From: an uncultured Acetatifactor sp.
GTDB lineage: Bacteria; Bacillota; Clostridia; Lachnospirales; Lachnospiraceae
Assembly: GCA_947627115.1 (NCBI GenBank)
Contig: CANQUQ010000008.1
Location: 1-64,000, forward strand
DNA length: 64,000 nucleotides
Reading direction: 5' to 3'
Below, piece by piece: positions 19,233-46,181 of the stretch. The notes beneath the pieces are model-generated. The model saw only the letters and a list, made by a program, of their open reading frames with translations, did not search any database and had not been told where the DNA came from. Each line of letters opens with the position of its first letter. Positions within the stretch are counted from its first letter, which is position 1. The position numbers and the translations under genes were made by a program.

Positions 19233-19491
19233 TGCTGTGGCATGATAGCTGTGAAGCGTGAGGTTGCTGGATGCCAGCAATGGCAGTCAGGTTTTCCGTG
19301 GAGCGAATGTCAAGTTAGAAAACTGACGACAAGTCACTGTACCAGTTAAAAGTCTGCCGAGGGCAGAAACGACGTGTAAATGACCTGTTCCCAAAAAGTT
19401 GCGTAAGGATTTAGGACACACACGGGAGAGTGTACAGTCACCGCTTGTCGTACTTGAGAATTGAAAGTGCGAAAAGGAGGCGACTTTTTTT
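19233..19491 (+). ncRNA. Structured 5' leader of rpsJ operon (candidate ribosomal protein leader)
   Basis: TTGCTGG-atg-CCAGCAA; GTCAGgTTTTC/GAAAACTGAC; TCTGCC-gag-GGCAGA; about 260 nt between promoter and rpsJ start. Confidence 0.55.
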
Positions 19492-42203: not shown

Positions 42204-44645
42204 ATGAATATTCAGGAGATTTTATCAAGGGTAGATGGTCTGTTCGAGGAAAACAAGGGCAAGGAGGCCGAGAGACTGATGCTGGAGGCCATGGAACAGG
42301 CAGTGAGGGAGGAGGACGACAACAGTCTGCTGCATCTGCTGAACGAGCTTTTGGGATATTATCGTGAGACCGGTCAGTACGCCGACGCCTTCCGGATCGC
42401 CGATCAGGCGCTGGCGCAGGCGGAGCGCATGGGACTTCAGGGCACGGCGCCCTACGCCACCACGCTGCTGAACGTGGCCAACGCCTACAGGGCGGGCGGC
42501 AGGCTGGCGGAATCCCAGGAGTACTATGCTGAGGTGCAGGAGCTCTACGGAAGGATCTATCCTCCCGACAGTATGTTCACGGCCGGACTGAACAACAACC
42601 TAAGCCTGCTCTACCAGGAGATGGGGGAGTACGGAAGGGCGAAGGAATGTCAGCTAAAAGCGCTGGAGATCGCAAAGGAACAGAACGCCGCCTATGAGCT
42701 GGGGGTGACCTGCGCCAATCTTGCCGCCACCTGTGTCCTGCTGGGCGAACAGGAGGAGGCCAGAGAGTATGCGGAAAGGGCCGTAAAGCTTTTCCGGGAG
42801 CTTGGCGCCGAGGACAGCCATTATGCGGCGGCCCTGTCCTCCCTGGGAGGATATCACTTTCAGAAAAAGGAGTATGAAGCGGCGCTGGAATATTACCGCA
42901 GGGCAATGGAGCTCGTGGAGCGGGGCGTAGGAAGGAACGAAGCCTTCAGGCGGCTTGAGGAAAACATAGCCGTCTGTGAGCGGGCCCTGGCAGCAGGCGA
43001 GGAGAAGGAGGCCGGGAAGGAGAAGGAGACCGGGGAGGAGAAGGAGACCGGGGAGGAGAAGGAGACCGGGGAGGAGAAGGAGACCGGGGAGGAGAGCCGC
43101 GGCTTCGGCCTCGAATTGTGCGAACGGTACTACAAAGCGTACGGCAGACCCATGATTGCGGAAAAGTTCGCCGCCTATGAAAATAAGATCGCGGTAGGAC
43201 TTGTGGGAAAGGGGTCCGACTGTTTCGGCTATGATGATGAGGCTTCCAGAGACCACGATTGGGGCCCTGGATTTTGCATGTGGCTGACGGAGGAGACCTA
43301 CGGGCAGATCGGTGAGGCTCTGCAGAAGGCTTATGAGGAGCTGCCGCAGGAATTTCAGGGAATCCGCCGCGCCCCAAGGGTGAACGCAGGCAGCAGACGC
43401 GGCGTGATGATCATATCCGACTTCTATCGGGAGCTTGTGGGAGCGGGAAAATATGAGGAGATCGACTGGAAGCAGGCGGCGGACCATTCTCTGGCGGCAG
43501 CGGTGAACGGCAGGGTATTCCGGGACGACGAGGGAATCTTTTCCGAATTCCGAAATAAGCTGGCGGCGGGCTATCCGGAGCAGATCCGCCTGTTGAAGCT
43601 GGCTGAGAGCGCTGCCCGCTTCGCACAGACGGCCCAGTACAACTATCCCAGAATGATGGGCCGGGGGGATCGCCTTACGGCCCGTATGATGGTGTGGGAC
43701 GGTGTGAAGGCGGCTATGAAGCTGCAGCATTATATCGAGGGAAAGTATCCGCCCCACGACAAGTGGCTGTATCGGAGCCTGGGAGAATCCGGGGAGGGAA
43801 GAGAGGTCCGGAAGCTGCTGGAGCAGGCGGCGGCCCCGGAAGAGGCGGACAGAGAAAAGGAAGGCAGCGATTCCCGGATCCGTCAGGCCATAGAACGGCT
43901 GGGTGAATATTTTGCCATGGAGATGTACCGGCAGGATATCATCAGCGATATTGACTCTTATCTGGATGCCCACAGTCAGGAACTGGTGTATAAGGCATCG
44001 CTGGCGGCCAAGAGCCGCGAGGAACTGGCGGACGAGATCGCGGCACTGGAATTTGAAGCCTTTGACAAGGTAAAGAACGAGGGCGGCAGGGCCAGCTGTC
44101 AGAACGACTGGCCTACCTTCTCCATCATGCGGAAGAGCCAGTACCTGACATGGAACAGGACCATGCTGATGCAGTATCTCTACGATTTTTACAGAGAGTA
44201 TCACAGGGGACACAACCTGATCGAGGAAAAATACGGAAGAATGATGGAGAGTACCGCGCCGGAGAAATACGAGGAGATCAAGGGCCATTTTCCGGAGCTG
44301 ACCGAAGAAAAGAAGGCTATCATCGAGCAGATCTGCGGGATGCAGGTCGGCTGGATGGAGGAGTTCGCCGGAAAATACCCCGCGCTGGCCGACAACGCAA
44401 GGAGCATCCATACCTACGAGGACAATCCCTTTGACACCTCCTATGAGACGTACCTGCGGGGAGAGCTGGGCACCTATTCCGACAAGATGCTGGAGCTGTA
44501 CGGCAGATATATCGTGGAATACGCCAGAGCCGGCAAAAATTTAGCGGAGGATATTATGGGGAACAGCGTGCGCATGTACGGATATGGGAGCATAGAGGAG
44601 GCGGAGCGGAAGACGGCCGCCGCCTGGGACGCCCTTAAGCCTTAA
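42204..44645 (+). CDS. TPR-repeat protein with nucleotidyltransferase-like (DUF4037-type) and DUF4125-type C-terminal regions
   Basis: N-terminal TPR helices; GKGSDCFGYDDEASRDHDWGPGF fits GS-x(n)-DxD NTase motif; DUF names from family memory, not searched. Confidence 0.7.
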   Translation: MNIQEILSRVDGLFEENKGKEAERLMLEAMEQAVREEDDNSLLHLLNELLGYYRETGQYADAFRIADQALAQAERMGLQGTAPYATTLLNVANAYRAGGRLAESQEYYAEVQELYGRIYPPDSMFTAGLNNNLSLLYQEMGEYGRAKECQLKALEIAKEQNAAYELGVTCANLAATCVLLGEQEEAREYAERAVKLFRELGAEDSHYAAALSSLGGYHFQKKEYEAALEYYRRAMELVERGVGRNEAFRRLEENIAVCERALAAGEEKEAGKEKETGEEKETGEEKETGEEKETGEESRGFGLELCERYYKAYGRPMIAEKFAAYENKIAVGLVGKGSDCFGYDDEASRDHDWGPGFCMWLTEETYGQIGEALQKAYEELPQEFQGIRRAPRVNAGSRRGVMIISDFYRELVGAGKYEEIDWKQAADHSLAAAVNGRVFRDDEGIFSEFRNKLAAGYPEQIRLLKLAESAARFAQTAQYNYPRMMGRGDRLTARMMVWDGVKAAMKLQHYIEGKYPPHDKWLYRSLGESGEGREVRKLLEQAAAPEEADREKEGSDSRIRQAIERLGEYFAMEMYRQDIISDIDSYLDAHSQELVYKASLAAKSREELADEIAALEFEAFDKVKNEGGRASCQNDWPTFSIMRKSQYLTWNRTMLMQYLYDFYREYHRGHNLIEEKYGRMMESTAPEKYEEIKGHFPELTEEKKAIIEQICGMQVGWMEEFAGKYPALADNARSIHTYEDNPFDTSYETYLRGELGTYSDKMLELYGRYIVEYARAGKNLAEDIMGNSVRMYGYGSIEEAERKTAAAWDALKP
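43013..43092 (+). repeat. 18-bp in-frame tandem repeat (GAGAAGGAGACCGGGGAG)
   Basis: Encodes (EKETGE)n linker EKETGEEKETGEEKETGEEKETGEE. Confidence 0.85.
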
Positions 44646-44716
44646 GAGCGCCGGATATTAGAAGAAATATATAAAAATATATATAATGAAAATAATGCAA
44701 AAGGAGAACAGTAAAA

Positions 44717-44797
44717 ATGCTGTGTCATATGATCATTGATCTAAGCATCTTTCTCTGTACAGGATCCGATGCCCGGACGAGGCTTGTACAGAGGTAA
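44717..44797 (+). CDS. 26-aa candidate leader peptide of MFS pump
   Basis: MLCHMIIDLSIFLCTGSDARTRLVQR; SD AAAGGAGA; overlaps competing hairpins. Confidence 0.6.
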   Translation: MLCHMIIDLSIFLCTGSDARTRLVQR

Positions 44798-44824
44798 CAA
44801 ATAATTTCGTCCGCATTGGATTTT
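44753..44824 (+). promoter_or_regulatory. Candidate attenuator: mutually exclusive hairpins
   Basis: Hairpin A CTCTGTACA/TGTACAGAG (44753-44793); hairpin B ATCCGATGC-cc-GGACGA/TCGTCC-GCATTGGAT then TTTT (44764-44824). Confidence 0.6.
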
Positions 44825-44882
44825 GTACTTATAGGTTGAAGGAACTCTCTATTGCACAAACTATCTATAAGGAGAAAATTCA

Positions 44883-46181
44883 ATGAATCATAACGGAAAA
44901 ATAAGCTTTAAGAGATATATTGTTTTTTGGCTCAGTCAGTCCCTGTCGCAACTGGGAAGCGCCATGACAGGCTTTGCCCTGATCCTTTGGGCGTACACTC
45001 AAAGCGGATCGGCCCTGCAGGTCTCGCTGATGTCGTTCAGCAGCTATGTGCCGTATATTCTTGCCAGTCTGGTCGCCGGTGCATTTGTGGACAGGAACGA
45101 CAAAAAGAGGATCATGCTGGCCTCGGATTCCGTGGCGGCTGTGGGCTCTGTGGCGGTGCTGTTATTCAGCCTTTCCGGCTGCCTGCAGATATGGCATATC
45201 TATCTGGTGAATATGCTGACCGGGTTCATGAATGCCTTTCAACAGCCGGCATCCGCCGTTGCTCTGGGCAGGATCGTTCCCAGGGATAAGCTGGCCAACG
45301 TCAGCGGCATGAATTCCTTTTCCATGAATCTGACTACCGTGCTGACTCCGGTGCTGGCGGCTGCGCTGTACGCGTTTGGAGGATTGGGGCTGATCCTGAC
45401 TGTGGATCTGTGCAGCTTTGCCCTGGCATTTTTTGTCCTTCTGACACTGATCTACATTCCGGAGACGGAGAGCACAGAGGGAGGAAAGACCGAAGATTCC
45501 GCTTTTTCGGGCTGCAGGGAGGGCTTTTCCTTTCTGCTGGCCAACCGGGGCATTCTGGTCATTGCGGTCACGATGGCCCTGCTCAACTTTTTCTCCCGGC
45601 TGACCTACGAAAACATCCTGTCGCCGATGATACTTTCCAGAAGCGGCAATGACAGCCTTGTGCTGGGCGTGGTGAATGCCATGATGGGCGTGGGAGGAAT
45701 TCTCGGCGGGCTTTTGGTGTCGGCCGGTAAATTGTCTAAGGATAATGTCAGGATGATCTACGTGTCCGCCATACTCTCGTTCCTGCTGGGAGATCTGCTG
45801 ATGGGAGCGGGACGGAATGTTCTCGTATGGTCGCTGGCAGGTCTGGCCGCCAGTCTGCCGATTCCGTTCATCAATGCCGGTCAGAACGTGATCTTGTATG
45901 AAAGGATACCGGATGAAATGCAGGGCAGGGTCTTTGCCGTGCGAAATGCCATACAATTCAGCACGATTCCCGTAGGAATCCTGCTGGGAGGTATTCTGGC
46001 CGACTATGTGTTCGAGCCCTTCATGGCATGGGAAAACCCTGTCACGGATGTGCTGCATCATCTGGTGGGAGAAGGCGCGGGCAGCGGCATGGCGGTCATG
46101 TTCCTCTGCACCGGTATCCTCGGCAGCCTGTTCAGTCTCTGCGCCTATCGTAGCAAGGAAATTCAGGAGCTGCGCCGCTGA
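44883..46181 (+). CDS. MFS transporter, DHA3 (macrolide-efflux-like) family
   Basis: 12-TM pattern; FWLSQSLSQLGSAMTGFALILWAYTQSGSALQVSLMSFSSYVPYILASLVAGAFVDRNDKKRIM. Confidence 0.85.
   Translation: MNHNGKISFKRYIVFWLSQSLSQLGSAMTGFALILWAYTQSGSALQVSLMSFSSYVPYILASLVAGAFVDRNDKKRIMLASDSVAAVGSVAVLLFSLSGCLQIWHIYLVNMLTGFMNAFQQPASAVALGRIVPRDKLANVSGMNSFSMNLTTVLTPVLAAALYAFGGLGLILTVDLCSFALAFFVLLTLIYIPETESTEGGKTEDSAFSGCREGFSFLLANRGILVIAVTMALLNFFSRLTYENILSPMILSRSGNDSLVLGVVNAMMGVGGILGGLLVSAGKLSKDNVRMIYVSAILSFLLGDLLMGAGRNVLVWSLAGLAASLPIPFINAGQNVILYERIPDEMQGRVFAVRNAIQFSTIPVGILLGGILADYVFEPFMAWENPVTDVLHHLVGEGAGSGMAVMFLCTGILGSLFSLCAYRSKEIQELRR

Follow-up and report, generated by a model that had tools for sequence, protein, structure and literature searches.

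An MFS pump gene in an uncultured Acetatifactor sp. is probably controlled by a ribosome-mediated translational attenuator with a logic like that of erm(C). It lies in a 64,000-nt stretch of DNA, called the window here, from a 2.88-Mb genome of the family Lachnospiraceae. In our models, a ribosome jammed early on a short leader peptide probably uncovers the start site of the pump, and with its relatives in other genera the arrangement appears to represent a new and widespread family of switches that sense antibiotics in Lachnospiraceae. The original prediction for this locus was a leader peptide and mutually exclusive hairpins ahead of a DHA3-type pump, with a ribosome stalled at an R-T-R motif blocking a terminator. 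The leader, the hairpins, the type of pump and their conservation hold up; the R-T-R stall and the terminator do not.

The leader ORF and its hairpins lie inside a 237-nt gap that separates a gene for a protein with TPR, DUF4037, and DUF4125 domains (42204-44645) from the pump gene (44883-46181), with the features laid out in Table 1. The upstream protein, also encoded on the + strand, has a short GEEKET repeat and ends about 70 nt before the leader start. A consensus scan did not call a promoter at the TATAAT listed in Table 1, and since no terminator was called between the upstream gene and the leader, read-through from the gene ending at 44645 is possible. Of 200 dinucleotide shuffles of the 188-nt leader RNA, 199 fold less well than the real sequence (z = -3.5). 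An Rfam search at the leader gave no family above its gathering score, and the FsrA and uup matches, weak and far under their gathering scores, were rejected. The sole Rfam family above threshold in the window is the S10-Clostridia ribosomal-protein leader (RF03136, 84 bits) at 19243-19332 (+).

Table 1. Coordinates of the leader, the competing helices, and the pump gene in the window.
Feature	Position	Strand	Basis
Possible -10 box TATAAT with a poor -35; promoter uncertain	44682..44687	+	sequence only
Leader SD (GGAG)	44703..44706	+	sequence; 10 nt upstream of leader ATG
Leader ORF, 26 codons + stop, ATG...TAA, MLCHMIIDLSIFLCTGSDARTRLVQR	44717..44797	+	sequence, conservation, coding constraint
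Conserved peptide block MLC(H)MxIDLS, codons 1-10, proposed arrest sequence	44717..44746	+	conservation, modelling
Predicted P-site of stalled ribosome, codon 8 or 9	44738-44743	+	energy modelling
Hairpin A 5' arm, CTCTGTACA	44753..44761	+	sequence, alignment
Hairpin B 5' arm, GTACAGGATCCGATG + GGACGA (44757-44771, 44775-44780), pump-start mimic	44757..44780	+	compensatory changes
Hairpin A 3' arm, TGTACAGAG	44785..44793	+	sequence; 100% of cells paired, 29 sequences
Hairpin B 3' arm, TCGTCC + CATTGGATTTTGTAC (44807-44812, 44814-44828)	44807..44828	+	sequence, covariation
Hairpin C 5' arm, anti-start/anti-SD, CATTGGATTTT-gta-CTTATAG	44814..44834	+	duplex energies, covariation
Hairpin C 3' arm, CTATAAG-gag-AAAATTCAATG, over the pump's SD and start codon	44865..44885	+	sequence, duplex energies
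Pump SD GGAG	44871-44874	+	sequence
DHA3-type MFS efflux pump, 432 aa, regulated gene	44883..46181	+	TIGR00900, PF07690

The pump matches PF07690 (MFS_1) above cut-off, and TIGR00900 over its full length with 204 bits, under the cut-off of 319.6. Against the Mef profiles it scores 110 bits for Mef(A) (cut-off 675), 108 for Mef(B) (cut-off 800), and 86 for Mef(C) (cut-off 870), and the PDB search returned a single weak match, to LmrP. By these profile scores it is a DHA3-type MFS protein outside every named Mef family. Orthologues across the genus are 61-84% identical, with 84% identity to the pump of another uncultured Acetatifactor sp. (locus L123).

Conservation of the upstream region was the test proposed for the switch, and the region passed it, the leader and hairpins standing upstream of all orthologues examined. 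In the genus, the leader ORF with hairpins A and B is present in 29 of 29 loci where the region upstream of the pump is complete; a thirtieth, L020, is on a contig that begins within the leader, and keeps its 3' half. The leader occurs in other genera of the family as well, for a total of 116 distinct sequences. The 26-codon ORF that had been read at 44717-44797 is thus the same ORF that precedes the orthologues, where a purine-rich SD is found ahead of it too.

For codon analysis we used the 88 distinct leaders with standard spacing. Over codons 2-10 (LCHMxIDLS), pS is 0.81 and pN is 0.20, giving a ratio of 0.25 in frame 0, compared to 0.48 and 1.41 for the same region in the two alternative frames. 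Ile7 and Leu9 hardly change as amino acids while their codons vary, and Cys3 and His4 are both unusual and conserved. Codons 11-12 exhibit no constraint, and codons 13-15 are nearly invariant even at synonymous sites because there they are an RNA arm. The coding constraint points, indirectly, to translation of the short ORF with an SD upstream of the pump. A ligand-binding riboswitch or a protein-binding RNA, to which the ORF would be incidental, is on these data highly improbable: it would account for codons 13-15 being kept as RNA and for the variation of the stop codon and C-terminus (L012, L006), but codons 2-10, which lie 5' of all three hairpins described below, keep their amino acids despite near-saturated synonymous change, an SD precedes the ORF, and Rfam offers no match above a gathering score.

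The R-T-R motif occupies leader codons 20-22 (44774-44782), in the C-terminal part of the peptide, where there is no peptide conservation. Among the 116 sequences, R-x-R is found in 9 and the looser R/K-x-R/K (+X+) in 42. L006, L007, L012, and many others have no motif of the R-T-R type, the L012 leader ends before that region, and several leaders have no stop codon. With these counts and the constraint on codons 2-10, the conserved translated element is MLCHMxIDLS and not R-T-R, which is ruled out as the arrest motif by its poor conservation.

Hairpins A and B are where they had been drawn, exclude each other, and recur in each of the 29 complete loci of the genus. Covariation in A is slight among these leaders, which we call type 1, because A hardly varies. 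Hairpin B has compensation in both of its helices, with 12 double-change cells compared to 3.3 in shuffles (0 of 500 as high). The pairing that had been proposed for B is correct, and its length of 15 bp is not, since B reaches further, through the TTTT to GTAC.

The two-hairpin wiring was right about A and B, but it missed a second partner of the 3' arm of B, namely the SD and start codon of the pump, which form what we name hairpin C. Of the first ten base pairs in C, nine can form in 110-116 of the 116 sequences and the other one in 108. The duplex of C with its own partner has -17.8 kcal/mol versus -13.0 for partners swapped between species, which is 4.9 kcal/mol better, and the distal stem has -7.9 versus -4.4 kcal/mol, with none of 200 swaps as good. 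Since swapping leaves relatedness in place, counted independent events are stronger evidence for C. At position 4/-1, both partners have changed together from U-A to C-G four separate times on the pump tree, such that the arm CATCGG goes with the start region CGATG in 8 of 8 cases, and position 9/-6 likewise switches from U-A to C-G. Hairpin B tolerates these switches because the G residues in its 5' arm can pair with U as well as C. With its 5' arm of B, the leader ORF imitates the start region of the pump; mimic and true start compete for one arm, the segment 44814-44828 shared by B and C. The pairing evidence indicates that the SD and start codon of the pump are sequestered in C as an alternative helix.

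How a ribosome on the leader would bear on that choice was approached by computing how much free energy it takes to open the region from the pump's SD to its AUG with a 31-nt ribosome footprint on each leader codon, in a model that leaves out pseudoknots, folding kinetics, and transcription coupling. Averaged over 111 sequences, opening costs 6.1 kcal/mol without a ribosome, 4.3 with codon 8 in the P-site, 4.8 with codon 9, and about 9-11.5 for ribosomes at codons 12-22. In 83 of the 111, codon 8 or 9 is the cheapest position for opening (codons 1-17 considered), and ribosomes on the last codons (24-27) reduce the opening cost as well. In the window, the cost is 5.2 free, 1.4 at codon 8, a maximum of 11.7 at codon 13, and 8.4-9.6 at R-T-R. 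For shuffled leaders the profile stays level at 4.4, and its swing is 0.9 +/- 1.1 versus 7.9 for real ones. The average gap between no ribosome (6.1) and a stall at codon 8 (4.3) is modest, and the window's is larger (5.2 versus 1.4). The position at which the RNA is predicted to open falls at the end of the peptide block, whose conservation was established independently. A stall at R-T-R, the trigger that had been proposed, has against it both the counts given above and a modelled ribosome at codons 20-22 that keeps the pump start closed.

The same calculation bears on what hairpin B is for. It had been cast as the OFF-state terminator, and the transcriptional version of the switch would have a macrolide stall at R-T-R cover the 5' arm of B so that transcription continues, as in mef(E)/mel. 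We find this quite unlikely. B is stable and is followed by TTTT in the window, 23 of the 116 relatives (about 20%) carry TTTTTATT after the extended hairpin, at least 5 T within 8 nt after B are found in about 44% of sequences, and mef(E) does use transcriptional attenuation (PMC4335068). However, the U-tract is not conserved: it is broken by compensated changes in relatives (GGATCCTG in L009, GGATCTTG, GGATTCTG), that is, it is lost where pairing is kept, and the T-rich composition of the tail follows from its pairing with the pump's SD region. Most leaders are without R-T-R, and a terminator explains neither hairpin C nor the conserved codons 1-10. A terminator scan of the window called none at hairpin B, and an intrinsic terminator is rejected as the general mechanism, although some lineages, such as those with TTTTTATT after B, possibly have a termination component. 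Because a modelled ribosome closes the pump start at codons 20-22 and opens it at codons 8-9, B is more likely the ON, or anti-attenuator, structure.

The translational attenuator we favor would then work as a competition of three helices, with A within the leader ORF, C on the pump's SD and start, and B joining C's segment with the leader ORF. With no ribosome on the leader, or with one that moves freely, C would mask the pump start, and B would be prevented by A or by ribosomes over codons 12-22. A ribosome stalled at codon 8 or 9, the end of MLCHMxIDLS, would cover the 5' arm of A and leave most of the 5' arm of B free. B could then form, C would open, and the pump would be translated. The cause of the stall may be an antibiotic, most likely one acting on the peptide exit tunnel or the peptidyl transferase, which the pump would export. 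Macrolides are a plausible inducer and one candidate among several, given the kind of pump and a predicted stall once 8-9 residues have been made, with lincosamides, phenicols, pleuromutilins, and others equally possible.

A non-antibiotic signal would suit the same RNA, with the switch sensing slow early elongation or a shortage of charged tRNA at the Cys, His, and Met codons 3-5 and the pump exporting a metabolite. We regard this as unlikely. The unusual and conserved Cys3 and His4 fit it, as do the scores of named pump families far under their cut-offs and the weakness of the PDB match to LmrP. Yet the leader lacks the string of identical codons seen in amino-acid attenuators, the geometry favors codons 8-9 over 3-5, and a sister leader, described below, has L-C and I-A at other positions.

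To see how far the type 1 leader extends, we built a covariance model from it (R1) and used it to search 397 genomes from the family; at E <= 0.01 it matched 24, of which 18 are strong (3 in the window's genus and 15 in other genera). A class-wide sample gave R1 no match outside the family, and in its own genome there is no credible second copy (E > 2). Blind to the downstream gene, an exact DNA pattern of the leader core was also scanned over 85,462 species genomes and matched 110 stretches. The 80 tabulated loci have the same MFS gene downstream wherever the contig continues, and among them no gene other than the pump follows the core. L089 is an apparent exception, in which the leader is intact and a deletion has left only the opening codons of the MFS gene downstream. 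Among the named carriers are Lacrimispora xylanisolvens, whose cultured strain DSM 3808 has a type 1 leader (L138), L. amygdalina, Anaerocolumna sp. AGMB13025, Blautia sp. An81, and Eubacterium sp. 14-2. The core pattern is found in none of 2.9 million viral contigs, and leader DNA has no match in plasmid and phage collections save one chance-level phage match. The pump lineage is apparently native and chromosomal in common gut anaerobes, given that, at the sensitivity used, neither the plasmid nor the viral collections contain the core and phages have it no more often than by chance.

Some leaders depart from the standard form. Those of L049, L067, L072, and L117 start with MLCLCHRII(D/E)LS, an apparent two-codon duplication by which the distance to the start is altered and the distance to hairpin A is not. 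L055 and L057 have a third type of leader, MAPVIRMNAAALCRVS, with a pump 57-58% identical and A, B, and C recognizable by eye.

A sister set of 20 more distant pump homologues from the same genus, about 37-44% identical, mostly has another leader, M-x-L-C-I-A-x-A-P-C-(K/R)-V-stop. This type 2 leader, with the A/B/C layout, stands upstream of MFS genes at L172-L174, L176-L181, L183, L184, and L187-L220. Its RNA forms the same three helices from wholly different sequences: CTCCATGCA/TGCATGGAG, GCAAAGTCTGAGGA/TCCTCAGACTTTGC, and GACTTTGC with the SD-adjacent GCAAAGTC. Hairpin A does vary here, with compensation; hairpin C varies little (one double-change cell), and its support in this subfamily is mainly the pairing itself. 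In 16 of 16 sequences, the modelled opening cost is lowest with the ribosome just before A, 9-12 nt ahead of the A-P-C alanine codon, which corresponds to codon 4 or 5 in leaders of the usual form. A stall at that codon would suggest a drug acting on the peptidyl transferase for the sister leader. L182, L185, and L186 have no recognizable leader, and in L171 and L175 the arrangement is compact and has two states, with a leader such as MILCIASAPCKIN and one hairpin, GCTCCATGC/GCATGGAGC, whose loop encloses an SD-like AGGAGA and the leader stop codon.

The model built from the sister subfamily (R2), searched over the 397 genomes (334 genera) at E <= 0.01, matches 69 genomes and up to 64 of the 334 genera, and all 30 of the loci it returned, each of them checked, have a pump of the same family downstream. 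R2 also picks up the window's own leader in its genome (E = 0.009). A few of its weak matches, the G051 leader among them, belong to type 1, so the true type 2 count is slightly below 64 genera.

The original prediction knew of no published system with this leader; likewise, a literature search that covered subscription journals thinly gave no description of the leader or of translational attenuation of MFS pumps in Clostridia. On balance we lean towards an undescribed, family-wide class of antibiotic-sensing attenuators, a start-mimic switch onto which two or more unrelated arrest peptides have been grafted (MLCHMxIDLS, with a stall at codons 8-9, and MxLCIAxAPC, at codons 4-5), which would respond to different drugs through new motifs. 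The antibiotic-sensing leaders known so far mostly belong to mobile resistance genes in a small number of pathogens. In the present case the switch is carried by an apparently native pump lineage of gut anaerobes, type 1 in many genera and type 2 in up to 64 of 334, which suggests that gut commensals sense translation inhibitors through such leaders. For each of two new candidate arrest peptides, the collections also supply a natural alignment and a sharply predicted stall codon.

Among described systems, the leader of tet(M) (Tn916 orf12) was considered as kin and rejected: it reads MLCIPMVMHKNPSDKSIYHWDF..., has no A/B/C, and is alike only in its first three residues, MLC. Comparison with the upstream regions of tet(M), tet(O), and tet(S) found no relation to the leader. 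In Bacillus subtilis, bmrCD is a multidrug transporter under ribosome-mediated control through BmrB (PMC4191407), differing in being an ABC transporter under transcriptional attenuation. The mef(E)/mel system (mefA/msrD) resembles ours in that a leader peptide precedes a DHA3-type efflux pump. Its leaders, MTASMRLR and that of msrD, MYLIFM, act via intrinsic terminators (PMC4335068, PMC10314930), and the leader sequence, a conserved +X+ motif, and a conserved U-tract terminator are not shared, nor is the pump a Mef.

The nearest in logic are erm(C) and erm(B), where a stall on the leader peptide swaps helices and frees the SD (PMC5118997, PMC10219788). Our modelling leads us to expect the same from the present leader, a short peptide with a stall after 8-10 codons and a helix exchange that would free the SD. 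ErmBL stalls with Asp10 in the P-site (PMC5118997), compared to a predicted Asp8 or Leu9 here, so the geometry is alike, although the two are not homologous. Unlike erm(C) and erm(B), the peptide is dissimilar, the regulated gene is an MFS pump and not a 23S rRNA methyltransferase, and one RNA segment can pair either with the leader ORF or with the SD and start codon of the pump, with the leader mimicking the start region of the gene it precedes.
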